64,000 nt of DNA from Roseburia rectibacter (lineage in GTDB: Bacteria > Bacillota > Clostridia > Lachnospirales > Lachnospiraceae). Every line of letters starts with the position of its first letter. Position 1 is the first letter of the stretch. The notes beneath the pieces are model-generated. The model did no database searches and was not told where the DNA came from. It saw nothing but the letters and a program-made list of their open reading frames with translations. Below are positions 44,370 through 60,479 of this stretch, piece by piece. The DNA is taken from positions 1,267,001-1,331,000 of the forward strand of contig NZ_CP092473.1 of NCBI RefSeq assembly GCF_014287515.2, given 5' to 3'. Position numbers and translations under genes: made by a program.

Positions 44370-44403
44370 AGTTTGTGTTAATAGAAAAAGAAAGGAACTG
44401 GTT

Positions 44404-46089
44404 ATGAAAAAAGGGCAGATCGTAGAAGGAATCATTGAAAGGGTGGATTTCCCGAATAAAGGAATTTTAAGAACGGAAGATGGTACACGTGTGATCGTAA
44501 AAAATGCGATCATGGGACAGAAAGTATCAGCAGCAGTCAATAAGGTCAGAAAAGGAAAATGCGAAGGACGACTGCTTGAAATATTGGAAAAATCTGCACT
44601 GGAGCTGCCGGAACCTGGATGTGTTCATTATGGGATCTGTGGTGGCTGTACATTCCAGAGCCTTCCATATGAGGAACAGCTTAAGATGAAAGAAAAGCAG
44701 GTCAAAGACCTGATCGACGCAGTCATCACTGAAGAAAATAAGGGATATGAGTTTTTACCAATCAAAGCAAGTCCAAGACCAAAAGCATACCGCAACAAGA
44801 TGGAGTTTTCATTTGGAGATGAATATAAGGATGGTCCGTTGGCACTTGGAATGCACAAACGCGGCAGTTTTTATGATATCGTAAATGTAGGAGAGTGCCA
44901 GATCGTAGACGAAGATTTCCGTCGTGTGCTTAAGATCACGTTGGAATATTTTAAGGAAAAACAGATTTCATTTTATCATAAACTCCGTCACACCGGGTAC
45001 CTCCGTCATTTTCTTGTGAGAAAAGCAGCAAAAACAGGAGAGATTTTAGTTGACCTTGTGACAACTACACAGATGGAGGAACTTAGTGGGGAAAATGAAA
45101 GTGCATTATTAGAAGGCTGGGTGAAAAAACTTTGTGAGGAAAAATATGACGGTGTGCTAAAAGGAATCCTTCATACAAAAAATGACAGCGTTGCCGATAC
45201 GATCAAAAATGAGGGGACAGATATTTTATTTGGACAGGACTTCTTTTATGAGGAACTGCTTGGTCTGAAGTTTAAAATCACGCCATTTTCCTTTTTCCAG
45301 ACAAATTCCCTTGGTGCAGAAGTACTCTATCAGACTGCACGTGAATTTATCGGGGATGCGCTCGACGATGAGGCGAATCAGACAGTATTTGACCTGTATT
45401 CCGGAACCGGAACAATCGCACAGATACTTTCTCCGGTTGCAAAGAAAGTGATCGGTGTGGAGATCGTGGAGGAAGCTGTTGTGGCTGCAAGGGAGAATGC
45501 AGCTTTAAACGGACTTACCAACTGCGAATTTATCGCGGGAGATGTATTAAAAGTGATCGATACGATCGGGGAAAAACCGGATTATATCGTACTTGATCCG
45601 CCAAGAGATGGAATCCATCCGAAAGCACTGGAGAAAATCATCCGCTATAATGTGCCGCAGATGGTCTATATTTCCTGTAAACCGACCAGCTTAGCAAGAG
45701 ATCTTGAAGTGCTGCAGGCGAGAGGTTATCAGGTGAAGAAAGTGCAGTGCGTGGACATGTTCCCTGCGACGGGAAATTGTGAGACGGTTGTCTTGCTTTC
45801 CAAGGGCGAGGTCGACTCGAAAAAGATTCGGGTTGAGTTCTCTTTGGAAGATATGGATATGTCGGAGTTCCAAGATGGGGCAACCTACACGCAGATCAAG
45901 GACTATGTACTGGAACATAGCGGATTAAAGGTATCCAACCTCTATATCTCACAGATTAAACGGAAATGTGGGATTGAGGTAGGCAAAAACTATAATCTGC
46001 CGAAATCCGAGGATTCCAGACAGCCCCAGTGTCCGCCGGAAAAAGAGAAAGCAATCCGAGAAGCATTCAAATATTTTGGGATGATCTAA
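44404..46089 (+). CDS. rlmD: 23S rRNA (uracil-C5)-methyltransferase with exchanged C-terminus
   Basis: RlmD/RumA-type enzyme that methylates a uracil of 23S rRNA using SAM. Residues 1-60 form a TRAM domain; CVHYGICGGC carries iron-sulphur ligands; DLYSGTGTIAQ binds SAM; the catalytic Cys is in SCKPTSLARD. The family normally ends soon after DMFPxTxxxETVVLLS. Here the frame continues for about 100 residues (SLEDMDMSEFQDGATYTQ, SNLYISQIKRKCGIE, KYFGMI) that are not part of RlmD. GAGACGGT at 45781 is the mobile-element junction. The open frame begins earlier (44353), but the ATG at 44404 has a ribosome site. Enzyme activity of the hybrid is unknown. Confidence 0.9.
   Translation: MKKGQIVEGIIERVDFPNKGILRTEDGTRVIVKNAIMGQKVSAAVNKVRKGKCEGRLLEILEKSALELPEPGCVHYGICGGCTFQSLPYEEQLKMKEKQVKDLIDAVITEENKGYEFLPIKASPRPKAYRNKMEFSFGDEYKDGPLALGMHKRGSFYDIVNVGECQIVDEDFRRVLKITLEYFKEKQISFYHKLRHTGYLRHFLVRKAAKTGEILVDLVTTTQMEELSGENESALLEGWVKKLCEEKYDGVLKGILHTKNDSVADTIKNEGTDILFGQDFFYEELLGLKFKITPFSFFQTNSLGAEVLYQTAREFIGDALDDEANQTVFDLYSGTGTIAQILSPVAKKVIGVEIVEEAVVAARENAALNGLTNCEFIAGDVLKVIDTIGEKPDYIVLDPPRDGIHPKALEKIIRYNVPQMVYISCKPTSLARDLEVLQARGYQVKKVQCVDMFPATGNCETVVLLSKGEVDSKKIRVEFSLEDMDMSEFQDGATYTQIKDYVLEHSGLKVSNLYISQIKRKCGIEVGKNYNLPKSEDSRQPQCPPEKEKAIREAFKYFGMI
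45781..45788 (+). other. attL core of the mobile element
   Basis: GAGACGGT within rlmD codons 460-462; GC-rich element sequence begins on its right. The same 8 bases recur at 60453. Confidence 0.75.
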
Positions 46090-46113
46090 CATCCAGCAAA
46101 GTGGAGGTTTCTT

Positions 46114-46359
46114 ATGGATAGATTGATTTCTTGTGAGTTTAACATGGATACCGCTTGTGTGGAACTGAAATTTTTAGATGGCAGCATGATTGCCATTGAT
46201 ACCATCGCCGTGGAGAATGAGGTTGCTGACAATATGTATCAACGGTCAGAACTGGATTATCTAATCTACAATGATCCGGTTGGATATGCAGACTTGATCT
46301 TGAACGGTGATCCCGAAATTTATCTAAAAACTGTAACTGAATGTAAACCCTTAGATTAA
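46114..46359 (+). CDS. Small element protein, DUF6061-like
   Basis: An 81-residue acidic protein (RLISCEFNMDTACVELKF, AIDTIAVENEVADNM, LDYLIYNDPVGYADLILNG) that resembles small proteins often found beside the left end of Firmicute mobile elements. GGAGG precedes the ATG and a strong terminator follows. Function unknown; family name is from memory of the motif. Confidence 0.7.
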   Translation: MDRLISCEFNMDTACVELKFLDGSMIAIDTIAVENEVADNMYQRSELDYLIYNDPVGYADLILNGDPEIYLKTVTECKPLD

Positions 46360-46366
46360 AACTCAG

Positions 46367-46400
46367 CCCTCTGCCTTTTCCTTGGCAGAGGGCCGTTTTT
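46367..46400 (+). terminator. Terminator at element left side
   Basis: CCCTCTGCC-8-GGCAGAGGG (46367-46392) then CCGTTTTTT. Confidence 0.88.
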
Positions 46401-46410
46401 TGCTTAACAG

Positions 46411-49056
46411 TTATTGAGCATCCCTTAATTGCTCTACAACACTGCATTTCGCTGCATTGTCATACATCATGCAAGGAATCAGCCACCCCAGCAGAAGAAA
46501 TACCGGAATTGTCAGCAGGACAGGCAGAATGGTGAATCGATACTCAAAGAACCAGAACATACTGCCCAGCATTTTTCCTGCAAGAGGTCCCACCGCCAGC
46601 GACAGAATAAAGGCCGCCGATACGGAGGACATTGCGTAAAACAATCCCTCGTAGATCAGCATGGTTTTGAGCTGCCGGTTCGTCATTCCTACAGCCTGAA
46701 GCACAGCAAATTCACGGCGGCGGGAAAGAATACTGGTCATCATGGCGTTGAAGAAATTTAAGAGTCCCACCAGCCCGATGATAGCACAGAGGATACCACC
46801 TACCAGAAGGAACATCTGCCGGAACTGAGCAAACTCAGAGCGAGCCGTGGCCTTGCTTTCATACATCAAGGGTGAAAACTCACCGGCAGTGAGCTTCGAT
46901 AGATATTGCTCTGCTTCGGCCTCGTCTGCGTCGTCTGCTGTGTCGAACAGGTAGAGCATCGGAATGGCCGCACCGCCGCTGTCCCTCTGTGCGGTATCCA
47001 CAGACAAAACTGTCTCATATCCAATACCACCATAACGATAACTCATGGAATACGGAAGCTCTACCAAGGCGCAGACCGTGTACTCTACATCTCTGGCTCC
47101 ATACAGTTTTTCCTGAAAGTACTCCTCCGGTGTATCTTCGGTGCGGAGTTCCCCGGTGCGGCTGTCGATATATTTCACATCGTCCGCATAGGTGGCGGTG
47201 ATCGTGTCTCCCACCTTGGGGTAGTATTCAGGATTGGGCAGATTACCGTAGTCATCTAAGGAAACCGCAATGGCAATAGCGTTATTGTTTGGCTCCAGCA
47301 TAGGAGAAATATCTCCGTCGAACACTTGCAGCTTGTCAAACAGGCTGTTATCCAGAGCCTCGATTCTGGTATCTCCCATCACCATATCGCCCCGGTGCTC
47401 CATGCGGCTCATATGGCTGTCCAACTGCTCAGCACTTTCGTACCTTGCATAGTCCTGCCGCAGAGCATCCTCCGTCATCCAAAGATATACGGGTTTTCGC
47501 ACAGCATATCCCGTGCCGGAAAGACTGGACTTTGTGTTTGCTGCGATCTCTTCGATCTGTTCCGGCGTGATGAATTCATCTGCCGGGTTGTAACGGAAAT
47601 AGTCGGGCGTGCTGACGATAAAATCGGCGCAGGTCATGAAGGATACATACTTCTCCATGCTGAAGCCGCCCACAAAGGCACACAGTGCATTGAACAGCGT
47701 CACCGACAGTGCCAGAGACACCACCACCAGCACCGTCTTTTTTTTGTTTCGTCCCAGATTGGCAAAGGCCATCTGATGGAGCTTCGCTCCCCGGGTGCTG
47801 CGCTGTTTTTTCTTGGTCTGCATCGCATCTGTATATTTGGTAGCCTCCACCGGAGAAACCCTGGCTGCCATTTTCCCGGGCTTGGAGCAGGACAAAAGCA
47901 CCGTCAGCAGGGCAAACAGCACGGAGCCAACAAAGATCACAGGCGAAGTGCTGATGGTGGTGATGCCTGCATCCAACTGGGTGGAGCGCAAGACAACAGG
48001 CACCAGAACAGCGCCAATGCCATAGCCCAACAGCAGCCCCGCCGGAATGCCGATCAGACAAAGCAGAAGTGCCTGCTGGCGAATGATGCGTTTGAGCTGC
48101 CGGGGCGTTGTGCCAATGGTTTTCAGAAGCCCGTAAAACCGGATATCCCCCGCAACAGAGATCTGGAAAATGTTATAGATGATAAGATACCCGGTGAAAA
48201 TCACCAGCAGCAAAAAAGCTGCTATGGCGATCACAAGTTCCGGATCGAGATGCGACTCCAGCTGGGATGAGGTATATCCCCAGTTGACGCCGATCCGGAC
48301 GCTGTTGGGATCGGTATAGCTGTCCCATGTGTAGCCGAGATCGGTATCCACCTGCTCCATCTGCCCTTGAATGTTTGTACTGGAAGCCATCATGACATTC
48401 AAATCGGTGCGGAAAGGCTGTAAACCTGTTTTCACTGCCTGCGCTTCGATGTCATCTGCGTAATCACGGCTGATGTTGATGTAATGAACAGGCATTAGTT
48501 CATCATAGTCCCAATAGCCCACCAGCGTAAAGGTATCTGTTACAGTAAAGGCGGTTTGATCCTTGTCCGTAATGGAATAGGAAACCGTGACCTCGGCGCC
48601 CAGCTCCGGCGTTACGCCAAGCAGCCGCAACGCTGCCGTATCCATGGCTACCTCTTTGCCGCTTTCGGGCATCCGTCCGGTAGTAGGGGTTGCATAGCTC
48701 CATTTAGTGCAGTTGGCATCCATGTAGCTGATCTCTGCAGGGGTTTTGGAAAAGACACCCTCCGCAGTGATACCGATTACCTTCCGTACCCCCGCAGCCT
48801 TCACCTTTGGGTGGGCAGCGATACGTTCCGCCTGCTCGGGGGAAACATCCTTAAAGGTACCGTGTGCATAGCCACCTACCTGCCGAAACTGGTAGGTTTC
48901 ATAACTGGCGTTCAACGACAAGACAATGGTGAACATGGACGTAAATAGCAGCGTTGTCAGCGCAATGGCAAAAATAGCGATCAGATTGCGGCGACGGTTC
49001 GCATAAAGAGATTTTAAGCTGAGCTTTCGAATACATTTTCTGTTTTTGACATTCAT
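46411..49056 (-). CDS. ABC transporter permease, FtsX type
   Basis: An 881-residue permease with two FtsX-like membrane regions. One N-terminal helix (about 25-45), a large external domain, then helices near residues 265-400; a second external domain (about 470-740) is followed by the last three helices (LLVGGILCAIIGLVGLLNF onward). This layout fits MacB/Vex/BceB-like transporters of peptides or lipids. GTG at 49065 lies inside the ribosome site GGGAGG, so the ATG at 49056 is used. Paired with the upstream ATPase gene and a two-component system: probable antimicrobial-peptide defence or signalling exporter. Substrate unknown. Confidence 0.85.
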   Translation of the reverse strand: MNVKNRKCIRKLSLKSLYANRRRNLIAIFAIALTTLLFTSMFTIVLSLNASYETYQFRQVGGYAHGTFKDVSPEQAERIAAHPKVKAAGVRKVIGITAEGVFSKTPAEISYMDANCTKWSYATPTTGRMPESGKEVAMDTAALRLLGVTPELGAEVTVSYSITDKDQTAFTVTDTFTLVGYWDYDELMPVHYINISRDYADDIEAQAVKTGLQPFRTDLNVMMASSTNIQGQMEQVDTDLGYTWDSYTDPNSVRIGVNWGYTSSQLESHLDPELVIAIAAFLLLVIFTGYLIIYNIFQISVAGDIRFYGLLKTIGTTPRQLKRIIRQQALLLCLIGIPAGLLLGYGIGAVLVPVVLRSTQLDAGITTISTSPVIFVGSVLFALLTVLLSCSKPGKMAARVSPVEATKYTDAMQTKKKQRSTRGAKLHQMAFANLGRNKKKTVLVVVSLALSVTLFNALCAFVGGFSMEKYVSFMTCADFIVSTPDYFRYNPADEFITPEQIEEIAANTKSSLSGTGYAVRKPVYLWMTEDALRQDYARYESAEQLDSHMSRMEHRGDMVMGDTRIEALDNSLFDKLQVFDGDISPMLEPNNNAIAIAVSLDDYGNLPNPEYYPKVGDTITATYADDVKYIDSRTGELRTEDTPEEYFQEKLYGARDVEYTVCALVELPYSMSYRYGGIGYETVLSVDTAQRDSGGAAIPMLYLFDTADDADEAEAEQYLSKLTAGEFSPLMYESKATARSEFAQFRQMFLLVGGILCAIIGLVGLLNFFNAMMTSILSRRREFAVLQAVGMTNRQLKTMLIYEGLFYAMSSVSAAFILSLAVGPLAGKMLGSMFWFFEYRFTILPVLLTIPVFLLLGWLIPCMMYDNAAKCSVVEQLRDAQ

Positions 49057-49071
49057 CGTAGCCACCTCCCG

Positions 49072-49743
49072 TTAGTTCTGGGAGACGATCCGACCATCTT
49101 CGATACGGATAATGCGGTCTGCCATCTGCGCAATTTCTTCGTTGTGAGTGATCATTACGATTGTCTGGGCGAACTTTTGACTGGTGACTTTCAAAAGGCT
49201 CAATACATCCTGGCTGGTTTTGGAATCCAGATTGCCGGTGGGTTCATCTGCCAGAATGATAGCGGGTGCTGCCGCCAGCGCACGGGCAATGGCTACTCGC
49301 TGCTGCTGACCGCCGGAGAGCTGATTGGGCAGGGCATCCAGACGATCATCCAGCCCAAGTGTCTGTACAATTTGCTGTACGAAATCCTTATTGACCTTGC
49401 CACCGTCCAGCTCAATGGGTAGAACAATATTTTCATACACATTCAGCACCGGAACAAGATTATATGCTTGGAACACAAAGCCGATTTTCCTGCGGCGGAA
49501 GATGGTCAGCGCTTCCTCCTTCAGGGAGAAAATATCCTGTCCGTCCACCATGACCGTGCCACTTGTAGGGCGATCCAGCCCGCCCAGCATGTGCAGCAGC
49601 GTGGATTTGCCGGAGCCGGATGTGCCGACAATTGCAACAAATTCGCCCTTCTTTACACTTAAATCAACTCCATCCAACGCATGAACTGCGTTATTGCCGG
49701 AGCCATAAATCTTTTTCAGGTTTTTTGCCTGTAAAACTTCCAT
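49072..49743 (-). CDS. ABC transporter ATP-binding protein
   Basis: A 223-residue ATPase of the LolD/MacB type. Walker [10 protein letters not shown] (about residue 40), Q-loop [12 protein letters not shown], signature [15 protein letters not shown] and Walker [13 protein letters not shown]. The open frame starts at 49830, but ATGGAGG upstream shows that GGAGG serves the ATG at 49743. It abuts the permease gene (15-base gap). A hairpin with a T-run sits in its leader. Confidence 0.93.
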
Positions 49744-49760
49744 AAATGAGTACCTCCATG

Positions 49761-49807
49761 AAAAAATCTGTATGTATGAAAGGAAATCATCCTTTGATAC
49801 ATACAGA
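49761..49807 (-). terminator. Hairpin with T6 in the ABC leader
   Basis: On the minus strand, TCTGTATGTAT / ATACATACAGA arms (with inner AAAGGA/TCCTTT) at 49807-49767 are followed by T6 at 49766-49761, then the ribosome site. It can terminate kinase transcripts or act as an attenuator for the ABC genes. Confidence 0.7.
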
Positions 49808-49839
49808 TTATCGCATAGGAATCTTTCCACATTCTTTCC
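49807..49839 (-). promoter_or_regulatory. Candidate regulated promoter of ABC genes
   Basis: A -10 box GATAAT (49812-49807) directly precedes the hairpin; the -35 is poor. Two direct repeats GGAAAGA (49839-49833 and 49828-49822), 11 bases apart, overlap the -35 position, as OmpR-type regulators bind. Confidence 0.5.
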
Positions 49840-49878
49840 GGCGGAAAATGAAATCTAACAGTTTTGATAGAATTGTTG

Positions 49879-50778
49879 TTATTTCGGCAGAAATATGGAA
49901 AACGTACTTCCTTTTCCCGGAACGGAAGCAATCTTGATATAACCTCCCTCGCCGGATATGATCTGTCGGGCAAGGTATAAGCCGATGCCGACCCCTTCCT
50001 GCTCCTGAACCGCCTTTGAGCGGTAAAAGCGAGCAAATATCTTCGCTTGCTCAGTTTCCGGTATGCCTGAACCGGTATCCGATATATCGATCCTTGCAAA
50101 CATTTCGTAACTTACGGCAGAAATCCTGATTGTGCCATGCTCTGTATATTTGATGGCGTTGTCTACGATATTCGCCAGCGCTTCCGCTGTCCATTTGAAG
50201 TCGAATACAGCAAAAGCATCTGTATCCTGCATTTGCAAAGACAATCCTTTTTCAGAAGCCTTGGCAGTATATTGTTCTACCACACTTTCAAGCAGCGGCT
50301 GCAGCGCTGCTTGCTGAGGGGAGAGTGAAATGATCCCGTTTTCCAGTCTGGAAAGCTTTACGAGAGAATCAATCAGAAATCGCAGCTTTTCCGATTGTTT
50401 GTACAGCGCCTCCACATTTGCCTTCGCCGATGCAGGCATAGTTTCCTCCATCAGAAGCTCGCTGTATAACAGCAGGTTTGCAATCGGCGTTTTTGTCTGG
50501 TGGGAGATGTCCGCAATCAAGGTTTTGATTTTGTCTTTTTCCTGCGCTATGTTTTGAGAAGATGCTTCTGCGGCGGAAAGATAGTGCGCAAACTTCGTTT
50601 CCAATGCAGATAGCCGGCTTTCATCAAAATTGGTTTCAGAAAAGGAGCCGGTCATGGCAGCGTCCAGCATCCTTTCGATTTCTTCCATCGTTTTTCTGAT
50701 CTTCCTCCGCTCCCATAATACAGCAGCTATCGCCGCCAGAAAACATAGCAGTATGATCACAATGCCGGTTTTATTCAT
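49879..50778 (-). CDS. Sensor histidine kinase
   Basis: A 299-residue kinase with a single N-terminal membrane helix (GIVIILLCFLAAIAAVLW) and no sizeable sensor domain. The phosphoacceptor is in ADISHQTKTPIANL; N box ALANIVDNAIKYT; G boxes DTGSGIPE and GVGIGLYL. Kinases this small usually sense through a partner transporter. Its start overlaps the regulator's stop region by eight bases. Acts with the response regulator and ABC transporter. Confidence 0.9.
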   Translation of the reverse strand: MNKTGIVIILLCFLAAIAAVLWERRKIRKTMEEIERMLDAAMTGSFSETNFDESRLSALETKFAHYLSAAEASSQNIAQEKDKIKTLIADISHQTKTPIANLLLYSELLMEETMPASAKANVEALYKQSEKLRFLIDSLVKLSRLENGIISLSPQQAALQPLLESVVEQYTAKASEKGLSLQMQDTDAFAVFDFKWTAEALANIVDNAIKYTEHGTIRISAVSYEMFARIDISDTGSGIPETEQAKIFARFYRSKAVQEQEGVGIGLYLARQIISGEGGYIKIASVPGKGSTFSIFLPK

Positions 50779-51448
50779 CTTTTGTCACCCAGCTATAACC
50801 GATTCCGTAGATGGTTTTAATGTATTTCTGTGCGCCAAGCTTATCCCTCAGACGCTTGATCGTAACAGACAAAGCATTTTCATCCACATATTCTGCGCCA
50901 TCTGTCCAGATCCGGTCGACAAGGTCTCCACGGGTCATGGTTCGACCACGGTTTTCAACAAGCAGACGCAGTAATTTTTGTTCTGTTTTACTCAATTCCA
51001 CTTTTGAATCTCCCACATAAAAGGTCATAGACTCAAAGTCAAAGTGAAATAGATCCATATGGAACGGCGCATTTTTATGGTTTGACGCTTGCTTTCGCAG
51101 TTGGGTATTCACCCTTGCACGCAAAACCGAAAGAGAAAAGGGCTTGGTAATATAATCATCAGCGCCTCTCTCCAGTCCGTCTACGATGTCCAGATCGGTG
51201 TCGTTGGCAGTCAGCAGAATAACAGGAATTCCGGGCAGGTTTTCCTTGACCTCCCGAAGCAGCTCAAGCCCGCTGCCATCCGGCAGATTGATATCCAGCA
51301 GGATCAGGGATACACCGCCGCAAAGAAGCTGTTCCTTCGCCGTTTTTAGGTCTTGGCAGGATATAATCTGACGGTCATCTGCTTTCAGTGCTTTACTTAA
51401 ACCCTGATTCAACCCTATATCATCTTCAATAATCAATAATTGTTCCAT
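50771..51448 (-). CDS. OmpR-family response regulator
   Basis: A 225-residue regulator: receiver domain with acidic pocket IIEDD and phospho-Asp in LILLDINLPDGSG, conserved Lys in DDYITKPF, then a winged-helix DNA-binding domain (SKTEQKLLRLLVEN, VDENALSVTIKRLRDKLG). An upstream in-frame start (51472) is less likely than the ATG at 51448, which follows GAGGGAG. Probably drives the ABC genes through the repeats at 49822-49839. Confidence 0.92.
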   Translation of the reverse strand: MEQLLIIEDDIGLNQGLSKALKADDRQIISCQDLKTAKEQLLCGGVSLILLDINLPDGSGLELLREVKENLPGIPVILLTANDTDLDIVDGLERGADDYITKPFSLSVLRARVNTQLRKQASNHKNAPFHMDLFHFDFESMTFYVGDSKVELSKTEQKLLRLLVENRGRTMTRGDLVDRIWTDGAEYVDENALSVTIKRLRDKLGAQKYIKTIYGIGYSWVTKDE

Positions 51449-51464
51449 GTATCTCACTCCCTCG

Positions 51465-51560
51465 TTATTCAAAGGCCACCATTATTTCCTTGGGTAATTT
51501 TTCGTTCTCACAGTTCAGAAGATAGGCGATTGCTCTGCTTGCAAATTTGTTTGTTTTCAC
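51465..51560 (-). CDS. 31-residue small protein
   Basis: A short frame of 31 codons: VKTNKFASRAIAYLLNC then ENEKLPKEIMVAFE. Its GTG start overlaps the TGA stop of the sigma-like gene (GTGA), and the response regulator starts 16 bases after its stop. The tight coupling and amphipathic, protein-like composition support a real gene. Function unknown. Confidence 0.5.
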   Translation of the reverse strand: MKTNKFASRAIAYLLNCENEKLPKEIMVAFE

Positions 51561-52636
51561 TGTATCCCAATCGGCAAGCAAAAGACCTCTGCCTTTCCGT
51601 TCTCAAAATCTAATGATATTTCGCCCCATTCGCCGTCGCAGTCTGCCTGATATTCGTAGATTGCGGCGGCGATTTTCTTTTTTCGCTTGGTCTTGGATTT
51701 CTGTTTTAGCCGGACTGCATGGATTGCGCCCTCGGCAACCAACAATTCCGTCAACTTGTCCACTGCTTTTCGGTAGGCTCGTTCTGCACCGCTGGCTGTA
51801 CTGCCCTCAAACATAACCGCCAGTTCTTCAAAGGTGGGGCGGTCTTTCCATGAGCTGACACGCCCACAAGTCATGCAAATTGCTAACCGTTTTTCGAGCA
51901 AGGTCTGTTCCCGGTAATTCAGTTTCTCAAATGCCTGCTGCACCTTTTCTGCTTGTATGCCGTTCCAGAGGATATCGGTATAGTTCCAGCTATCGTCAAG
52001 GGCTACATCCTCGCCTGTTTCCTCGCCGTTCTCGTCTGTCACATAGAATGGCTGCTGATTGCGGATTCCACGGACAACTTTCAGATATTCTTCCGCAAGG
52101 GCAAGATCGCAGTTGTATTTCTTGGAAAATTCGTTGACCGCATCCTTGGTATTGTGGAACAGCCAAGCCATTGACCGCACCATTTTGTAATTGGTCAGAG
52201 AGGACACCGACCATTTTTCTTCGCCCATGCGAAAACGGAGCATAGCATCCCGGATGAACGGGAAAATGTATGTAGCATACTCTGCACCCTTGGCAAGGTC
52301 ATAGTCCATCAGCTTTTGGAGCATTTGCTCCCGGCAGGAGAGCTTTATATCTATAAATCGGTCTGTGTCATACAGATCGCCGCCATCCACACCGAGAAAG
52401 TCTTTGATGCGCTTGTTAAGTTGCGGCTCGTAGTAGTGTAGGAAGAATGAGAAATATATCAAATTCTTTTCCTGCAAGGCAGACAGGATATATTCGTTCA
52501 GATTGCCTACCGCTGGAGGCTCCGGTTCCAGTTGGAAGATGCGCTCTGCCGCATAAGGAATGATGCCGTCACCGTGCGGATTGACAGCGTGTTTTGGTAT
52601 GTATCCGGTCATGTCCCATGAAAAATCACTCAGCAT
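51557..52636 (-). CDS. Sigma-70-like element protein
   Basis: A 359-residue protein. The middle (about 75-175) recalls sigma-70 region 2 (RFIDIKLSCREQML, KGAEYATYIFPFIRDAMLRFRM, WSVSSLTNYKMVRS), and the C-terminal region (LTYREQTLLEKRL-like NYREQTLLEKRLAICMTCGRV, TFEELAVMFEGST) resembles region 4. Similar genes occur on Firmicute conjugative and mobilizable elements. GGAGGTG precedes the ATG. It may direct transcription of element genes; this is inferred. Confidence 0.6.
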   Translation of the reverse strand: MLSDFSWDMTGYIPKHAVNPHGDGIIPYAAERIFQLEPEPPAVGNLNEYILSALQEKNLIYFSFFLHYYEPQLNKRIKDFLGVDGGDLYDTDRFIDIKLSCREQMLQKLMDYDLAKGAEYATYIFPFIRDAMLRFRMGEEKWSVSSLTNYKMVRSMAWLFHNTKDAVNEFSKKYNCDLALAEEYLKVVRGIRNQQPFYVTDENGEETGEDVALDDSWNYTDILWNGIQAEKVQQAFEKLNYREQTLLEKRLAICMTCGRVSSWKDRPTFEELAVMFEGSTASGAERAYRKAVDKLTELLVAEGAIHAVRLKQKSKTKRKKKIAAAIYEYQADCDGEWGEISLDFENGKAEVFCLPIGIQ

Positions 52637-52680
52637 AGCGCACCTCCTTTCGGTTCTTTCTCTATCAATATCGACAGTAA

Positions 52681-53313
52681 TTATGCATCGAACTTTTTGT
52701 TAGTAGTATTATTTTCGTCGTCCATCATATCACTTAGCACGGCAAAAGCTTGGCTCAGCGGCACAGCCTTAGAAGTCCAGTTTTTCAAACTAAACAAGTT
52801 GGAAGATTCATCAAACACATCAAATTCGTCTGTCCCATCAGTGATTTTCTTCAAGTACAACATTTCTATCAAATACAAAGCTCCCAAGATATTTAGTACA
52901 TTCTCCTGCTTTGCTTGCTTCAACTGCTCATAGCGGTTGTGCTTGACATCTGTAAATGCTCCCCACCATTGCAACGACTGTGCGGGCTGGGTAATATCCC
53001 AATTCATAAACGGTTGTATTTCGATATCGTATTCCTGTACACTGATTTTTTGATTTTTTATATCCGGTGTGTTGGTCAAAATATACTGTGCATAGTCTGC
53101 AACCGTTTTTCGATCCGTTGTATTGAAACCGCAAAACTCTTTGAATACAGTATCCAACTCTGCCCCTATGGCTTGAATTAAGAGGGCATATCCGTTAGAA
53201 AATGCATCAAAATTGTCCTCATGTAGTTCTACAAACTCTATTGATTCAACAAAACGCTTTTCGAGCATTAAGTAGTATTTCCAATGATTCTGACTAAGTT
53301 CTTTTCTATTCAT
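52681..53313 (-). CDS. Unknown cargo protein, AT-rich
   Basis: A 210-residue, mostly helical protein of unknown family. A tryptophan-rich segment (QSLQWWGAFTDVKHNRYEQL) followed by ENVLNILGALYLIEMLYL is its most notable part and recalls HEPN-like or abortive-infection proteins, without a clear match. Base composition is visibly lower in G+C than its neighbours. Its ATG overlaps the stop of the gene before it by eight bases (ATGAATAG), so translation is coupled. An in-frame start at 53343 is not needed. Confidence 0.6.
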   Translation of the reverse strand: MNRKELSQNHWKYYLMLEKRFVESIEFVELHEDNFDAFSNGYALLIQAIGAELDTVFKEFCGFNTTDRKTVADYAQYILTNTPDIKNQKISVQEYDIEIQPFMNWDITQPAQSLQWWGAFTDVKHNRYEQLKQAKQENVLNILGALYLIEMLYLKKITDGTDEFDVFDESSNLFSLKNWTSKAVPLSQAFAVLSDMMDDENNTTNKKFDA

Positions 53314-54433
53314 GTTTGTCCCTTTCTTTGTATATTTTTGCACTTGCTTCCTTTTTCAAAGCCGCCTGGTCCATTTCTTTTTCATAAGCTCCCTTGGCAT
53401 AGGCTACATTGCTCAATGCCCGGAGCATCTTATCTTTTGCCAGCTTTTTCATAACCTCTGCAAGATCAGCGTCCAGAGTACCACGCTTCACATAGCGGTT
53501 TATGGTGTTCAGCCGTTTCTCATAAATCTGTTTCACCGGATGATCGTCCGCAAGCTCCCGTTGTTCTCTGCCTTTCAGGTTGCCGATCTGCCGACAGGTG
53601 CGGTGCAGCTTGTCCCCCGGTGCATAGCCGCCACAGTATTTGGCGTGCCGTGCGTTGGTGGTCAGAAACCACTTGCCGCAGATTTTGCATTTCTTCGGTG
53701 CATGACCAACACACAGGCCCTCAAAGAGATCAGACCGGAACATCCCTACAAAGGATACATAGTGCATCCGCTTGACCAGCTTCGCAACTTTTTCGCCGGG
53801 ACGGATGACGGATACATACTGAACGGAATTGTTCAGGGTAGACATCCAGGCATTGCCTTCCGTGATGGAAAACTCCGGCGGGAAATAGCTGCCGAACATT
53901 TTTGCAAAACCCTCTGCGGTGCGGTCTGCTTCGTTGCCGTCTGTTTTTTCTGCAAAATCAAGCATGGCCGTTTGGTATTCCCCAAGGGAGTATGCCAGAT
54001 GCCCGAAAACTGCGGTATAGCGTTGGAGCATCATCGCATCGGTAAAGTTCTGGATTTCTTCAAATTGCAAAGAATTGGTTGCGGCTTTTATGGCAAACTC
54101 CACATATTTCAGCGCATTGTCCACAGTAAAGACTTTTTCAATCCGTTCTCTGTGCTTTGAGATATTCATATAGGAGAACGGCGGTGTTTGACTGAGAATA
54201 TCGAGCATCGTCAGAGCAGCTTCCTTTGCAATAGGACAGAGTGCAGAAGCATCCTGTCCGGCGTTTAATATTCCAAGCAGCAGATTGATTTTCTCGCATT
54301 GCTCGTTTATTTTTGCAATGGTATTCACAGGAACATTCAGTGCATCACAGGCAAGTGTACCGACAGGAAATGTTTTGCTCTCATATATGACCGTATCCTG
54401 CCAGAAATCCAATGTCATCAATTCTTGATTCAT
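53306..54433 (-). CDS. DUF6076-like element protein with zinc-finger motif
   Basis: A 375-residue protein, helical in its first 230 residues, then a Cys/His cluster (CKICGKWFLTTNARHAKYC, later TC) typical of a zinc ribbon, and a basic C-terminal tail rich in Lys and Ala. Such proteins are common on Clostridia mobile elements and are of unknown function. GGAGGG precedes the ATG at 54433; an upstream start at 54460 is less likely. Divergent from the primase gene. Confidence 0.65.
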   Translation of the reverse strand: MNQELMTLDFWQDTVIYESKTFPVGTLACDALNVPVNTIAKINEQCEKINLLLGILNAGQDASALCPIAKEAALTMLDILSQTPPFSYMNISKHRERIEKVFTVDNALKYVEFAIKAATNSLQFEEIQNFTDAMMLQRYTAVFGHLAYSLGEYQTAMLDFAEKTDGNEADRTAEGFAKMFGSYFPPEFSITEGNAWMSTLNNSVQYVSVIRPGEKVAKLVKRMHYVSFVGMFRSDLFEGLCVGHAPKKCKICGKWFLTTNARHAKYCGGYAPGDKLHRTCRQIGNLKGREQRELADDHPVKQIYEKRLNTINRYVKRGTLDADLAEVMKKLAKDKMLRALSNVAYAKGAYEKEMDQAALKKEASAKIYKERDKHE

Positions 54434-54447
54434 GCTTGCCCTCCTGT

Positions 54448-54562
54448 CCTGTTTTTTCATTTTTCTAATTATATCATGTAAATGTGAAGAAATCTACGTC
54501 CTCAGATAAGTTGTCCTGTTTTTTGAAACAGGCTTGTCCTGTCATTAGCCTGTTTTTTGAAA
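54448..54562. repeat. Direct repeats in primase upstream region
   Basis: CCTGTTTTTT occurs at 54448, 54515 and 54549; the last two extend to CCTGTTTTTTGAAA with 34-base spacing. Candidate iteron-like or regulatory repeats. Confidence 0.5.
54468..54496 (-). promoter_or_regulatory. Candidate promoter for element minus-strand genes
   Basis: On the minus strand, TAGATT (54496-54491) and TATAAT (54473-54468), 17-base spacer, 35 bases before the DUF6076-like start. Confidence 0.45.
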
Positions 54563-54589
54563 AATCCGTCATAACCATAATAGAAGGAG

Positions 54590-54621
54590 CGAAGCACCTG
54601 CCAATCACGGCGGGTGCTTCG
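54590..54621. repeat. Hairpin upstream of primase gene
   Basis: CGAAGCACC (54590-54598) pairs with GGTGCTTCG (54613-54621). No T-run follows; might be part of an origin or a leader structure. Confidence 0.45.
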
Positions 54622-54655
54622 TGCTTTCCAGAATATTATGAACGGAGGGTTTTCT

Positions 54656-55276
54656 ATGACAATCTATGAAACCATCAAGGCGGCAATCAGCGTCAAGCAA
54701 GCCGCCGAACACTACGGGCTGAAAGTGAGCCACAACGGCATGGCTTGCTGCCCGTTCCACAACGACAGGCATCCGAGCTTGAAGCTGAATGAGGACTATT
54801 TTTTCTGCTTCGGCTGCGGAGCCAAAGGGGATGTGATCGACCTTGTGGCAAGGCTGTTCAATCTGAGCAGTTATGAAGCAGCGCAAAAGCTGGCTTTGGA
54901 CTTCGGGCTTGACCCGAAACCGCCCACTGCCGCAGCTATGGTCAAGCCGAAGCGTCCCTATATCCGTCAGTTCCGGGAGGATGAAATGCTGTGCTTCCGG
55001 GTGCTGACGGATTATTTGCATCTGTTGGAAGATTGGAAAGTGCGCTATGCTCCCAAGACACCGGAAGATGCTCTGGATGACCGTTTTGTGGAAGCCTGCC
55101 AGATGCACTGCCATATCGAATATATGGCAGATGTGCTGACGGTGGGTGATCTGGAAGAACGGGTGGCATTGGTGGACAAGCTGATGCAGGACGGCAAAAT
55201 TGCTTTTCTGCAAGAGTATACCGCACGAAAGAAAAAGGAGGTGGCGCACCATGGCGAAGAACCGGAAAACGCCTGA
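54656..55276 (+). CDS. CHC2 zinc-finger primase-like protein
   Basis: A 206-residue protein whose first 80 residues form a DnaG-type CHC2 zinc finger: CCPFHNDRHPSLKL then FFCFGCGAKGDVIDL. There is no TOPRIM catalytic core, so it is only the DNA-binding part of a primase. The open frame extends to 54614, but GGAGGG lies just before the ATG at 54656. It overlaps the helicase gene by 26 bases. Together they likely replicate the excised element. Confidence 0.85.
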   Translation: MTIYETIKAAISVKQAAEHYGLKVSHNGMACCPFHNDRHPSLKLNEDYFFCFGCGAKGDVIDLVARLFNLSSYEAAQKLALDFGLDPKPPTAAAMVKPKRPYIRQFREDEMLCFRVLTDYLHLLEDWKVRYAPKTPEDALDDRFVEACQMHCHIEYMADVLTVGDLEERVALVDKLMQDGKIAFLQEYTARKKKEVAHHGEEPENA

Positions 55277-56642
55277 TATGAACTTGCCCATGTGGTTTGA
55301 CGGGCAGAACATCAACGAAGCTCTGTTTTGTGAAGAATTTCTGCAAGAGCGCAGGATCATCTTCGCAAACGGAGCTTTTTTCACGCCCGATGGTCGAGTG
55401 ACGGACGATCTTCCTCTGCGTGGGGAGATTTACGACAAGCTGAAATTCTGTGCCGTAAACAATATCCCCCGGAAGATCACCAACATTCTGGAAGTGCTGA
55501 AACTGGAAGCGCAAGTGCCGGACTTTCCACCGGAGCAGGATCGGATTCATTTGTCCAACGGTACGCTGCTATTGAACGGCACATTTACCGAGGGCAGACC
55601 GGCTATCGTGCGGAGCCGTTTGCCGGTTGCTTACAATCCCGATGCTACTGCGCCGGTGATCTGGCTGAACTTTCTGGATGGGTTGCTTTACGCCGAGGAC
55701 ATTCCAACTTTGCAGGAGTTTATCGGCTATTGCCTGATTCCCTCCAACAAGGGGCAGCGCATGATGGTGATTAAAGGCAACGGCGGCGAGGGTAAATCTC
55801 AAATCGGTGCGGTACTGTCTACCATCTTCGGCACGAATATGAAAGACGGCAGCATCGGCAAGATTTCTGAAAACCGCTTCGCCCGTGCCGATTTGGAACA
55901 CATTCTCCTGTGCGTGGATGATGATATGCGGATGGAAGCTCTGCGCCAGACCAACTATGTAAAATCCATTGTCACCGCACAGGGCAAGATGGATTTGGAA
56001 CGCAAAGGCAAGCAGAGTTATCAGGGTTGGATGTTCGCCCGATTGCTGGCATTCAGCAACGGTGATCTGCAAGCCTTGTATGACCGCAGTGACGGATTTT
56101 ATCGCAGACAGCTTGTGCTGACCACCAAGGAAAAGCCAGTGGACAGAGCTGACGATCCCGACCTTGCGGAGAAGATGAAAGCCGAATCCGAGGGTATCTT
56201 CCTGTGGGCATTTGAAGGCTTACAGCGGCTTGTTGCCAACAACTTTAAGTTTACGGAGAGTGAGCGTATCCGGGAAAACCGGGAAGCGGTCAAGCGTGAC
56301 AACAACAATATCTTTGATTTCATGGATTCCGAGGGATACATCCAGCGTAAAGCGGATGCGTCCATCAGTTCCAAGGATTTCTATGAAATCTACCGGATGT
56401 GGTGCGAAGAAAATTCCCTTGCACCGCTGAAAGCCCGCAGCTTCAGCGACGCCATGATTGCCAATGCCGGGAGATTCAATCTGGAACATTGCAACAATAT
56501 CACCAACTCTGCCGGACGGCGGGTTTGGGGATTCATGGGAGTGGAAGCCATTGCACGACCTCATATAAATGGGTTTTACGGAGATTCGCCGTGTACGTAC
56601 GTACCGGAGGACATTCCGAAGGAATGGCGGCAGGTCGAGTAA
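55251..56642 (+). CDS. P4/D5-type primase-helicase
   Basis: A 463-residue SF3-like helicase of the phage/plasmid P4 family. D5_N-like region at about 60-150, Walker A KGNGGEGKSQIG (about 175), Walker B HILLCVDDDMRME (about 222) and a C-terminal winged helix. GGAGGTG sits before the ATG at 55251; an upstream start at 55200 is out of context. Works with the CHC2 protein in element DNA replication. Confidence 0.85.
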   Translation: MAKNRKTPDMNLPMWFDGQNINEALFCEEFLQERRIIFANGAFFTPDGRVTDDLPLRGEIYDKLKFCAVNNIPRKITNILEVLKLEAQVPDFPPEQDRIHLSNGTLLLNGTFTEGRPAIVRSRLPVAYNPDATAPVIWLNFLDGLLYAEDIPTLQEFIGYCLIPSNKGQRMMVIKGNGGEGKSQIGAVLSTIFGTNMKDGSIGKISENRFARADLEHILLCVDDDMRMEALRQTNYVKSIVTAQGKMDLERKGKQSYQGWMFARLLAFSNGDLQALYDRSDGFYRRQLVLTTKEKPVDRADDPDLAEKMKAESEGIFLWAFEGLQRLVANNFKFTESERIRENREAVKRDNNNIFDFMDSEGYIQRKADASISSKDFYEIYRMWCEENSLAPLKARSFSDAMIANAGRFNLEHCNNITNSAGRRVWGFMGVEAIARPHINGFYGDSPCTYVPEDIPKEWRQVE

Positions 56643-57020: not shown

Positions 57021-58310
57021 ATGGCAAGAAACGATGGAATAGACCGTACCGTAGCCAGAAATCAGGACTTGGGAAACCCGGCAGATGTGGCAAAGGTACA
57101 GGAACACAATGAGCGTGAAAAGGACAGCTACAGCAATCAGGACATCGTGCCGGAACGCACTTCTCTGAACGTCCATTTCAAAGCACCCACGGACGATTAT
57201 GTAAAAATGTTTGAGCAGATGGAACAAGACGGCGTGATCTCCACCAGAGGTCTGAAACCGGATGCCGTCAAATACGGTGAGTTGGTATTTGATGTGAACT
57301 CCGCTTATTTCTACAACTACGGCGGCTATGAATTTGCGAAACAGTTTTATGCCGATGCCTATAAAGCCGCCGTGGAGATTGTGGGTGGTGAGCAGTATAT
57401 CCTCTCCGCTGTGATGCACGCCGATGAGCGCAACCGGGCAATGTCCGAAGCTCTGGGCGAGGATGTGTACCACTACCACCTCCATGTGGTCTATATCCCG
57501 GTGGTGGAAAAGCAGATCCTTTGGTCGAAGCGATGCAAGGATGAAGCCCTCCGGGGAACCGTTAAGGAGGTCATCACACAGGTCAGCCGCAGCAAGAAAT
57601 GGGAGTCCAAGCCGGTGCTTGGCGAGGACGGAAATCCCATGCTCAACGCAAAAGGGAAAAAGATTTTGAAGTCATCCTACAGTGTGTTGCAGGATGACTT
57701 TTTCAATTTCATGCGAAACGCCGGTTATACCGATGTGGAGCGTGGAGAGCGTGGCAGTACAGAGGAACATCTGACTGTGACCCAGTTCAAGGTGCAGGCA
57801 GAACAGCAGCGGCTGGAAGCTGTGACCGGGCAGGTGGCACAGGCAGAACAGAATTTGGAGGATGCCAAAGCTGCCACAGCAAAACAGAAAAAGAAACTGG
57901 AATCTTTGCAAAAGGAAACCAAGGCGGCAAAGACCATTGCGCTGACAGTGCAGGACATTGAAGTAATGGGCAAAAAAGCCACATTCGGAAACAATATCAC
58001 GCTGACACCGGATGAATGCGACACACTCAAACGCCATGCGGTCAATGGCATTATCGTCAATGCTGACAACAAGCGTCTGAAAGAAAAACTGGCTTCCGCA
58101 GAAAAGACGGTTTCCATCTGGAAGCAGCGGTATGAAGCGGTAAACGAAAAATATATGGAACTCAAACAGAAAGCCCAACCCTTTCTGGATGCACTGGAAA
58201 TCGCATCCGAAAGGGTTCGGGCTTTTCTTGATGTTGTCCTCAGCAGAGGAAAAAAAACGCAGGAGCACGAACACACTGCCCGGAAGCGTGGACAGGATAT
58301 GGAACTTTGA
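57021..58310 (+). CDS. MobV-family relaxase (Pre/Mob)
   Basis: A 429-residue relaxase that nicks oriT and pilots the strand into a recipient. N-terminal residues contain HYHLHVVYIPV (metal-binding His cluster) and the upstream AVMHADERN; the spacing is longer than in pMV158 MobM because of an insertion. The C-terminal part is a coiled coil (AEQQRLEAVTGQVAQAEQNL onward). Located 50 bases downstream of oriT. The element needs a helper conjugation system. Confidence 0.9.
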   Translation: MARNDGIDRTVARNQDLGNPADVAKVQEHNEREKDSYSNQDIVPERTSLNVHFKAPTDDYVKMFEQMEQDGVISTRGLKPDAVKYGELVFDVNSAYFYNYGGYEFAKQFYADAYKAAVEIVGGEQYILSAVMHADERNRAMSEALGEDVYHYHLHVVYIPVVEKQILWSKRCKDEALRGTVKEVITQVSRSKKWESKPVLGEDGNPMLNAKGKKILKSSYSVLQDDFFNFMRNAGYTDVERGERGSTEEHLTVTQFKVQAEQQRLEAVTGQVAQAEQNLEDAKAATAKQKKKLESLQKETKAAKTIALTVQDIEVMGKKATFGNNITLTPDECDTLKRHAVNGIIVNADNKRLKEKLASAEKTVSIWKQRYEAVNEKYMELKQKAQPFLDALEIASERVRAFLDVVLSRGKKTQEHEHTARKRGQDMEL

Positions 58311-58325
58311 TGGAGGAATCGCCTA

Positions 58326-58511
58326 TTGAAGAAATATTATGAGGAAGCGAAATATAATGCGGCATTTGACCGCTGTGTGGATGTTATGAGTCAGATGCTC
58401 CAAAAATATGGACATCAGGTTTTGGATAAATTGGAACAGGACGCTCCGCAGGAAGTGGAGTATTCCGAGGAAAGTAATCAAGCGCAGCTTCTGACGGATA
58501 AGGCTGCGTAA
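58326..58511 (+). CDS. Small element protein
   Basis: A 61-residue, helical, charged protein (YYEEAKYNAAFDRCVDVMSQML). The start is a TTG with GGAGG nine bases upstream; no ATG is available. Unknown function. It lies between the relaxase and HTH genes and could be a small mobilization accessory. Confidence 0.5.
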   Translation: MKKYYEEAKYNAAFDRCVDVMSQMLQKYGHQVLDKLEQDAPQEVEYSEESNQAQLLTDKAA

Positions 58512-58523
58512 AATTTGCAATTT

Positions 58524-58572
58524 ACACGTTGCGTATTCACTATGGCTATGCTATAATGATTACGCAACGTGT
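58524..58572 (+). promoter_or_regulatory. Promoter flanked by inverted repeat operator
   Basis: TTGCGT (58529-58534), 17-base spacer, TATAAT (58552-58557). A perfect 12-base inverted repeat, ACACGTTGCGTA (58524-58535) and TACGCAACGTGT (58561-58572), overlaps the -35 box and lies just after the -10 box. Confidence 0.8.
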
Positions 58573-58600
58573 ATTTTTTGCTTTTGTGGAGAAAAGACGG

Positions 58601-58831
58601 ATGGATTGTAAAAACAGAATTATAAAGTTGCGGGAAAGCACAGGACTGAATCGGAAAGATTTTTGCAAGCTCGTCCATATTCCTTACCGGACTATGACTG
58701 AATGGGAATTGGACAACCGCCATGCACCGGATTATGTGCTGTGGCTTTTGGAGTATTATATCCGCAACGAGGGACTTATGGTAAAAGGAAGGAATGAGGG
58801 AGGTGGAGATTCTGAAAAAGAAACAACTTAA
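58601..58831 (+). CDS. HTH protein before recombinase
   Basis: A 76-residue helix-turn-helix protein (LRESTGLNRKDFCKLVHIPYRTMTEWELDNR). The frame opens at 58529, but that part lies in the promoter; the ATG at 58601 is the better start. It overlaps the recombinase start by 38 bases, so they are co-transcribed. It is well placed to bind the palindromic operator and control excision. Confidence 0.75.
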   Translation: MDCKNRIIKLRESTGLNRKDFCKLVHIPYRTMTEWELDNRHAPDYVLWLLEYYIRNEGLMVKGRNEGGGDSEKETT

Positions 58832-60479
58832 ATGCTATCTTTATACAAGAGTGTCCACCTCGATGCAGGTTGACGGATACAGCTTGGATGCCCAGCGTGA
58901 CAAGCTGCGGAAGTATGCGGCATACGAGGATATGATCGTTGCCGGGGAGTATTCTGACGAGGGCTTTTCTGGAAAGAACATTCAAGGGCGGCAGGAGTTT
59001 CAACGGATGCTGAATGACATCCAGGACGGCAAAGATGATGTTTCTTATGTGTTGGTCTTTAAGCTGTCCCGATTTGGCAGAAATGCAGCGGACGTTCTGA
59101 ACTCTTTGCAACTCATGCAGGATTTCGGTGTCAATCTGATCTGCGTGGAGGATGGCATTGACAGCTCCAAGGATGCAGGAAAGCTGATGATCTCTGTGCT
59201 GTCTGCGGTGGCAGAGATTGAGCGAGAAAATATCCGCACACAGACAATGGCAGGACGTGAGCAAAAGGCTCGTGAGGGCAAATGGAACGGCGGTTTCGCT
59301 CCATATGGATACAAACTGGAAAATGGAAACCTTGTCATTGCAGAGGATGAAGTGGAAGTAATTCGTGTCATTTATGACCGCTACATTCACACTAATGAGG
59401 GTGTTGCAGGAGTTGCAAAATATCTGAACCGCAATGGTTATACTAAGAAACTAAGACAGAATAATACCATTCCGGGATTTTCAAGAGATTTTGTGAAAAA
59501 TGTATTGTACAATCCTGTTTATATGGGAAAGATTGCTTACGGCAGACGAAGAACAGAAAAGAAACAGGGTACAAGAAACGAGATGCACGTGGTTGAGCAG
59601 TCGGAGTTCCCGGTTTATGAAGGACAACACGAAGCTATCATTTCCGAAGAGGATTGGTATCTGGCACAGGAAAAGCGCAAGATCAATTCCTTTAAGCGGG
59701 AAAAGGTTAACAATCCAGACCACGCACACATCCTGTCCGGTATCTTGAAATGCCCATGCTGCGGAAAGAGTATGTATGGCAATATCGCCAAGGCGCACAG
59801 CAAGGACAAGAAAACACGGTATTATTACTACTGCAAAAATACGGTTACACCGACAGGGCATGAGTGCAGTTTCCGTCTGAATATCGAGCAGACGGAAATC
59901 AACAAATTTGTGGCGAAGGTTATCTCCGCTATGGTCAACAATCCACGATTTGTAGAAGCAATTCAGGCGAAAATCGGAACAGCAGTTGATACAGAAGATA
60001 TGGAAAAGCAGATTGCTGTCCTACAAGGGCGGCTAAAGCAAGCCTTTGGAACGAAAAGCCGCTTGGAGCGTCAGATGGATACCTTGGACCTCAATGATGC
60101 CCACTATGACAGAAAGATTTTGGACTTGCAGCGCCGCTATGATGAGCAGTATGATACCATAGAGGAAATCGAAGTTCAGATTGGCGAATTGCAAAGTCAG
60201 ATCCGCAGCATCCAGCAGGAGAAGATTTCCGGAGACAATATCTATCGCTTGTTACTGGCATTTGATGAAGTCTACCATTCCGCAACGGAAGCGGAGCAGA
60301 AGGAGTTTATGAAGGCCTTTATCGAGCGAATTGAGATGTTCCCGGAGAAAAGGAAAGACGGAAGCTGGATAAAGAAGATCGTATTCAATTTTCCTGTGCC
60401 TGTTGATGGTGAGGAAGTGAAAGAACTTCCCTTGGAAACTGAAACAACTGTCGAGACGGTGTGTTTATTATCAAAATAG
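58794..60479 (+). CDS. Large serine recombinase with host-derived tail
   Basis: A 561-residue TnpX-like site-specific recombinase that integrates and excises the element. Catalytic Ser21 in YTRVSTSMQ; resolvase domain (about 12-150) with FKLSRFGRNAADVLNSLQ and ERENIRTQT; recombinase domain (about 170-290, GFAPYGYKL, VKNVLYNPVYMGK); zinc ribbon (CPCCGKSM, YYYYCKN, HECSF); coiled coil (about 390-480). AAGGAAGGA precedes the ATG. Codons 554-561 (ETVCLLSK) lie at the att core and are the old rlmD end; in the excised circle the frame would continue into the about 100 residues now on rlmD. Confidence 0.92.
   Translation: MREVEILKKKQLKCYLYTRVSTSMQVDGYSLDAQRDKLRKYAAYEDMIVAGEYSDEGFSGKNIQGRQEFQRMLNDIQDGKDDVSYVLVFKLSRFGRNAADVLNSLQLMQDFGVNLICVEDGIDSSKDAGKLMISVLSAVAEIERENIRTQTMAGREQKAREGKWNGGFAPYGYKLENGNLVIAEDEVEVIRVIYDRYIHTNEGVAGVAKYLNRNGYTKKLRQNNTIPGFSRDFVKNVLYNPVYMGKIAYGRRRTEKKQGTRNEMHVVEQSEFPVYEGQHEAIISEEDWYLAQEKRKINSFKREKVNNPDHAHILSGILKCPCCGKSMYGNIAKAHSKDKKTRYYYYCKNTVTPTGHECSFRLNIEQTEINKFVAKVISAMVNNPRFVEAIQAKIGTAVDTEDMEKQIAVLQGRLKQAFGTKSRLERQMDTLDLNDAHYDRKILDLQRRYDEQYDTIEEIEVQIGELQSQIRSIQQEKISGDNIYRLLLAFDEVYHSATEAEQKEFMKAFIERIEMFPEKRKDGSWIKKIVFNFPVPVDGEEVKELPLETETTVETVCLLSK
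60453..60460 (+). other. attR core of the mobile element
   Basis: GAGACGGT at codons 554-556 of the recombinase, same reading phase as the attL core; AT-rich host sequence follows. Confidence 0.75.

Follow-up and report, generated by a model that had tools for sequence, protein, structure and literature searches.

An element inserted in rlmD and the layout of its ends

The window analysed here, a 64,000-nucleotide stretch of the genome of Roseburia rectibacter (RefSeq assembly GCF_014287515.2, contig NZ_CP092473.1, positions 1,267,001 to 1,331,000), contains a 14.7-kb element at 45781-60460, which is inserted in the host gene rlmD (rumA) and carries genes for a large serine recombinase and a relaxase (Table 1). 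The octamer GAGACGGT is present at 45781 within rlmD and at 60453 within the recombinase gene, and is read in the frame GAG ACG GTN at both positions, as had been noted in an earlier interpretation made from the letters of the window only (hereafter, the sequence-only reading). Left of the first copy, the encoded protein is RlmD (TIGR00479, 291.8 bits). Here, the element-encoded residues ETVVLLSK restore the last residues of RlmD and are followed by 94 extra residues, matching the approximately 100 unrelated residues of the sequence-only reading; we refer to this element-encoded extension as the tail. At the right end, the recombinase closes with the host-derived residues VETVCLLSK and a stop codon. 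Both junctions of the element preserve the reading frame.

The 561-residue recombinase of the integrated element matched the families PF00239 (Resolvase), PF07508 (Recombinase) and PF13408 (zinc ribbon), all above their cut-offs, and fold comparison gave matches to serine integrases. From the layout, the recombinase encoded by the excised circle would have 553+102 = 655 residues, the length that the sequence-only reading had arrived at, and fusions of this recombinase to a tail of its own type account for 5/120 among the matches listed (this and the other fusion tallies count database clusters, not independent events). The window contains three copies of GAGACGGT, the third at 14149, as compared to 1.04 expected, and 8/100 shuffled sequences reach three copies. 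Because the octamer alone is not improbable, the case for an exchange rests on its recurrence in 26 elements of which both ends were compared.

Table 1. Features of the element, its attachment (att) cores and the two-recombinase loci; coordinates without a locus name refer to the window
Feature	Position	Strand	Basis or remark
Host rlmD (rumA) up to the att core	44398..45780	+	TIGR00479; relatives with and without tail
attL core GAGACGGT	45781..45788	+	GA common to both junctions in 26/26 elements
Element-encoded tail, 102 residues and stop: ETVVLLSK, linker, helical domain	45781..46089	+	Sequence, structure prediction, selection
DUF6061 open reading frame adjoining the tail	46114..46359	+	Pfam PF19537; more than 80% of length matched in 20/26 related element loci
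Putative cargo: FtsX-like ATP-binding cassette (ABC) permease and ABC ATPase	46411..49830	-	Pfam; permease in 6/26 related loci
Putative cargo: histidine kinase and response regulator	49879..51472	-	Pfam
Weakly sigma-factor-like backbone open reading frame	51557..52636	-	NCBIfam E 0.003, far under the cut-off; no Pfam match; in 20/26 related element loci
DUF6076 protein	53306..54460	-	Pfam PF19553
CHC2 zinc-finger protein and P4-type primase/helicase	54614..56642	+	Pfam, NCBIfam
Mob_Pre relaxase (MobV-like)	57021..58310	+	PF01076, E 7e-31; NCBIfam MobV 50.4 bits, cut-off of 100 not reached
Small helix-turn-helix protein, overlapping the recombinase start	58529..58831	+	PHROG transcription-regulator matches
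Large serine recombinase, 553 residues to the core, then host-encoded ETVCLLSK	58794..60479	+	Domain families, fold matches
attR core GAGACGGT	60453..60460	+	Sequence match
Displaced rlmD 3' end (ETVCLLSK, stop), now the recombinase end	60453..60479	+	Tail-less relatives
Two-recombinase loci	L238:1399-5309, L241:1376-5306, L242:1376-5045, L244:1352-5300, L247:3282-6964		First recombinase permanently tailed, second with att core
Two-recombinase locus L142	5001-base locus	-	First recombinase permanently tailed, second with att core

The exchange recurs in related elements

For 26 of 28 elements attempted, we paired the left tail with the right recombinase on one contig, and these 26 have the same layout. 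The pairing used in-frame protein patterns, and hence 28 is the fair denominator: tail and recombinase share the same frame at the core in 26/28 elements and, by eye, in a 27th (G411), of which the tail, VEAVVLLSK, lies outside the search pattern and both ends are in frame. The core is repeated at both junctions of the 26 elements, as expected of large serine recombinases and as known from sequence alone. Only the bases GA are common to both junctions in 26/26 elements; a crossover fixed more widely than GA was not supported, for the bases from position 3 onward may differ between the junctions. The remainder of the octamer is presumably identical in the window because the tail imitates the end of RlmD.

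Recombinase ends that carry no further tail vary by site (ETVVLMSRK, ETVARLERS and EVVILMRNCGKQA). They represent the host gene's displaced 3' end or, in some loci such as L099 and L106, what appears to be left of an earlier tail. Thus, the recombinase family does not naturally end in ETVCLLSK; such a natural end was one of the findings that the sequence-only reading had named as counting against it. The exchange of C-termini that it had proposed is borne out by the 26 paired elements and was already published for streptococcal integrative and conjugative elements (ICEs) in rumA (PMC4701971).

Among relatives of the host gene, 9 of 12 loci gave an RlmD end, and the tail was absent in 6/9 and present in 3/9. 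Most of the tail-less proteins end near ETVCLLSK (ETVCLLSRKDK in L084, ETVCLFSKK in L087 and ETVCLMSKVK in L091, each followed by a stop), while L092 is quite different; moreover, for the solved relative 5xj1 the alignment extends to residue 450 of 454 and includes ETVALLSK. As to the undisturbed RlmD, the end proposed in the sequence-only reading is therefore supported, but the length would be 469 residues counted from the ATG at 44398 rather than about 467. An RlmD 100% identical to the window copy is assigned by its source to Roseburia sp. AM23-20 (P0169), and near-identical rlmD genes occur with several different tails. No tail-less copy of this exact rlmD was found among the 120 close homologues listed, all of which are tailed (three with shortened tails), and the gene 3' of the element was not found behind rlmD in 18 relatives, with the exception of one weak match on the opposite strand (L214). 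Because an empty site of the same species was not found, the evidence for the empty site rests on the more distant tail-less relatives.

Sequence evidence for the tail as a recombinase domain

Tails of the window type are under strong purifying selection, with a median ratio of nonsynonymous to synonymous substitution rates (dN/dS) of 0.048 (55 distinct DNA versions, 1108 pairs); in the same 18 elements, dN/dS was 0.047 for the tail and 0.032 for the recombinase. In 24 elements, the identity matrices of tail and recombinase were highly correlated (r=0.972; none of 5000 permutations was as high), whereas those of tail and host RlmD (r=0.004; 2131/5000 permutations) and of recombinase and RlmD (r=0.001; 2343/5000) were not. 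In two elements with tails of a different type (QQKPDD; L164 and L165), only tail and recombinase were in common with the backbone of the window element, with recombinase identities of 0.56. No homologues of its MobV, primase and helix-turn-helix proteins were detectable in these two elements (tblastn, E 1e-4); there were weak matches to the ABC ATPase and two-component genes besides tail and recombinase.

A scan of the last 92 residues of the tail against Pfam and NCBIfam gave no match at E 0.1. The conserved portion spans approximately 70 residues with predicted helices, and this helical part (window 45883-46086) is matched by PHROG 27283, a family of 69 residues annotated without a function and the only named family found for the tail; thus, phage copies of the tail domain exist. 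In a predicted model of a tailed relative (mean predicted local distance difference test score (pLDDT) 72.8, predicted template modelling score (pTM) 0.34), the recombinase fold extends to about residue 546, residues 550-578 are of low confidence and helices span 581-651. The solved serine integrases, in complexes with DNA or with a directionality factor, aligned loosely over the whole chain, and these alignments stop at 532-540. In this model, the att core is placed in a linker after the complete body of the recombinase and before the tail domain.

Two adjacent recombinases were found in six loci, of which five are IMG/VR contigs and one is from a genome, and the first recombinase has the tail domain permanently fused to it. 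The fused domain is 49-59% identical to the window tail over 69 residues, and neither ETVVLLSK nor the core is present at the junction; for L238, the score against the window tail was 204, while the best of 500 shuffles reached 45. The second recombinases have a full tail (L238, L241, L244), a tail broken early (L242, L142) or no tail (L247); in L247, the first recombinase retains its tail and the second terminates in NDVETVTLLVRKP followed by a stop. In a tree that took in 5/6 of the permanently tailed recombinases (the first recombinase of L244 was left out), these formed one group with 100/100 support, adjoining the swapped ones. Among the sequence data, these permanently tailed sisters are the strongest point for the tail being a recombinase domain. 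In total, sequence comparison establishes the exchange with its reading frames, the selection on the tail, the recombinase as its partner and the existence of permanently tailed relatives; at this level, we conclude that the tail is a conserved recombinase domain.

Distribution of the tail

In a protein search with the tail as query, 7979 of 7990 scored sequences matched, and among the 120 listed, RlmD proteins of many different hosts were accompanied by ten complete or partial recombinases and by one member of the LacI family (P0007), to which the tail is fused, probably at a secondary insertion site. In 80 genome loci, out of 337 found, RlmD was 5' of the tail in 67, a full recombinase in 4 and neither in 9, two of which are cut by a contig end. 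On RlmD or elsewhere, the tail was present in 178/397 genomes of the family of Eubacterium ramulus G005, which we take to be the Lachnospiraceae. In this family, 40 loci were taken (the first 49 tail-bearing rows minus 9 already examined), and 38 of these were classified, L192 and L213 having no tail pattern; the tail was on RlmD in 28/38, on a recombinase in 1/38 and behind a short frame in 9/38. In L189, L206, L139 and L136, tails follow a recurring short frame ending like CVPMLVTTHV, with a long frame upstream in L136 and L139; this is probably a repeated secondary insertion site. The 27 IMG/VR loci had tails on recombinases (11), on RlmD (3) and after short or cut frames (13).

In the plasmid and phage collections, the tail was found in one plasmid and 11 phage records. 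The plasmid, pAPRE01 of Anaerococcus prevotii (L172), has a related recombinase at 13107-14783 that ends in VEAIALIQKM and a tail at approximately 4102 after an RlmD-like fragment. One of the phage records, YS162 of S. suis, encodes a rumA-tail fusion with a tail that is 47% identical to the window tail. A proven or complete free circle was not found in the collections searched, in which IMG/VR contigs carry no completeness figure. Moreover, the exchange explains an annotation puzzle, i.e. RlmD proteins of gut Clostridia with an otherwise unexplained tail of approximately 95 residues.

Relation to known systems

Among the closest known systems are the streptococcal ICEs in rumA, in which the core lies within rumA and the integrase gene, the 3' ends of the two genes are exchanged reciprocally, and the excised integrase has a different C-terminus and possibly a different function (PMC4701971). 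According to this paper, the replacement shifts the frame of both proteins in these ICEs, whereas the frame is kept at both junctions of the window element; moreover, the accessible portion of PMC4701971 does not describe the tail as a domain. Streptococcal integrative and mobilizable elements with a single serine integrase are also present in rumA (PMC5357655). In Clostridium difficile 630delta-erm, CTn5 is inserted in rumA and forms a RumA hybrid with the small open reading frame CD1844A (PMC4320837), which resembles the C-terminus of another rumA homologue (PMC4320837); CTn5 has a serine integrase (PMC4701971) and, as a conjugative element, differs from the putatively mobilizable window element. 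The end of its recombinase is not discussed in the accessible portion of PMC4320837.

In phage Mx8, as told in PMC4701971, attP lies in the integrase gene and integration replaces a C-terminus of 112 residues by 13, giving a less active product, but the enzyme is a tyrosine integrase, unlike the serine recombinase of the window. In mycobacteriophage BPs, attP lies in a regulatory gene and integration alters the C-terminus and activity of the protein, as proposed below for the recombinase; in BPs, however, a repressor is altered rather than a recombinase, and the part lost is an ssrA-like tag (PMC4557955). The suicidal archaeal SSV-type integrases likewise have their target site inside the integrase gene, but these are tyrosine recombinases split into inactive parts (PMC8371274), whereas the 561-residue form in the window retains the catalytic, recombinase and zinc-ribbon domains. 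Recombination directionality factors (RDFs) are proteins that activate recombination of attL with attR and inhibit that of attP with attB. Serine integrases usually depend on a separate RDF to turn from integrating to excising (PMC5737554), and in designed integrase-RDF fusions a small fused protein sets the direction; these fusions are artificial and favour excision (PMC5737554). The recognition of the tail as a domain of the recombinase is new here, as are the sister enzymes that bear it permanently, the preserved frame and the associated numbers; the first three points were not described in the literature searched, which left out most subscription journals.

A proposed model of a severed recombinase domain, and alternatives

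We consider it fairly probable that the tail is the recombinase's own C-terminal domain, severed by its own reaction, that the tailed form integrates and that loss of the tail signals the integrated state. According to this model, the excised circle would encode the tailed enzyme of 655 residues, which would catalyse recombination of attP with attB in a new recipient. On entry into a new cell, the circle itself makes only the tailed enzyme, and this form would therefore have to integrate unless helped by another element. Integration would transfer the tail to RlmD, the end of which would be rebuilt by the first residues of the tail such that the host enzyme is kept intact, and would leave the recombinase with 553 residues and a few host residues. 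Shedding the tail would mark the integrated state, the tail-less enzyme being less active or biased to the recombination of attL with attR with a helper; since this enzyme is the only one that a single integrated element makes, any self-driven excision would have to be by this form. A role of the tail in promoting integration, and a change of activity or direction on its loss, are our inferences; by analogy, such an effect would agree with Mx8 (as told in PMC4701971) and with the BPs repressor (PMC4557955). It is possible, although we are somewhat doubtful, that the DNA reaction itself sets the direction by altering the protein, i.e. that the circle's enzyme is integration-competent with its native control domain, that integration parks this domain on an rRNA methyltransferase and leaves an enzyme set for excision, and that the paralogues of the two-recombinase relatives differ, one retaining the domain for good while the other loses it.

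Several observations weigh against the model. Within the 19 window-like elements, the correlation between tail and recombinase falls to r=0.57 (26/5000 permutations). Moreover, this covariation also follows from the neighbourhood of the two on the circle, and because such linkage predicts r=0.972, the covariation is better at excluding an RlmD-driven tail than at proving joint function. The fold of the tail is not confidently predicted (pLDDT 64.9), and structure comparisons gave no strong match. In 1/28 elements (G407), the recombinase departs from the usual sequence before the core. In the 9/38 loci with the tail behind a short frame, the tail may not be made. Tandem rlmD-element arrays (L159, L164 (G006 contig 41), L161, L151 and L157) have an inner recombinase that bears the tail, of another type, of the next element; and among the 120 recombinase-tail fusions listed, the five with their own tail type stand beside 115 with another type (24/120 were typed by eye, 23 of them among the 115). 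To judge from these sequences, any switch must tolerate or misread foreign tails. Finally, the designed integrase-RDF fusions have a polarity opposite to that proposed for the tail (PMC5737554).

According to an alternative that we consider unlikely, every reaction would simply require the tail for DNA binding or synapsis; integration would then cripple the enzyme, and excision would have to draw in trans on the tailed recombinase of another element, a scheme like that put forward for the suicidal archaeal integrases. In its favour, tailed recombinases belonging to other elements lie alongside, as do first recombinases with a permanent tail, suicidal integrases are rescued in trans by related integrases (PMC8371274), and the shortened integrase of Mx8 is a precedent for reduced activity (PMC4701971). 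However, the recombinase fold is complete before the core in the predicted model, and the integrated recombinases stay open, full-length and under purifying selection; moreover, CTn5, a possibly comparable element with a serine integrase and a site in rumA, gives a faint band for intact rumA (PMC4320837). The tail could instead serve RlmD, keeping or tuning the methyltransferase after insertion, as the sequence-only reading had suggested beside a role in recombinase direction. ETVVLLSK does restore the natural end of RlmD, and RlmD is 5' of the tail in 67/80 and 28/38 loci; but tail divergence is independent of RlmD divergence (r=0.004), in 18 window-like elements the median identity is 96% among the tails but 38% among the RlmD proteins that bear them, relatives have a tail-less RlmD, and the same domain is permanently fused to recombinases, which makes this quite improbable for the tail as a whole. 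Of the two suggestions, the one for RlmD thus holds for the first eight residues, ETVVLLSK being best read as a copy of the RlmD end that spares the host, while the remainder of the tail tracks the recombinase and favours a role there.

We give little credence to the tail being a stability signal that marks the circle's recombinase for degradation or protects it, like the C-terminal tag of the BPs repressor: the repressor gene of BPs contains attP, and a degradation tag is present on the longer form only (PMC4557955), but the conserved part of the tail comprises approximately 70 residues with predicted helices and is not a short terminal tag, and RlmD would receive the tag too. That the tail acts in trans, the RlmD-fused tail being a constantly made directionality factor for the tail-less recombinase, appears very improbable. 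By layout, RlmD-tail is the sole tail product of a single integrated element, and an RDF fused to a serine integrase activates recombination of attL with attR (PMC5737554); yet the domain in cis would then be expected to oppose integration from the circle, and constant supply from a housekeeping gene would be expected to destabilise the element. For the model of a severed recombinase domain, the reaction itself makes a tailed and a tail-less form of one enzyme and the permanently tailed sisters are natural controls; thus, a test of whether the domain controls direction or activity would be simple.

Other genes of the element

Because the permease is present in only 6/26 related element loci, the ABC permease and ATPase genes together with the two-component genes (46411-51472) appear from their distribution to be exchangeable cargo. 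Among the 13 open reading frames of the element and the tail, to which the scan was confined, smaller open reading frames being outside it, no transfer-apparatus family was found in Pfam or NCBIfam. With its recombinase and Mob_Pre relaxase, the element is on this gene content best described as an integrative mobilizable element. The small helix-turn-helix protein encoded at 58529-58831 is a candidate directionality factor.

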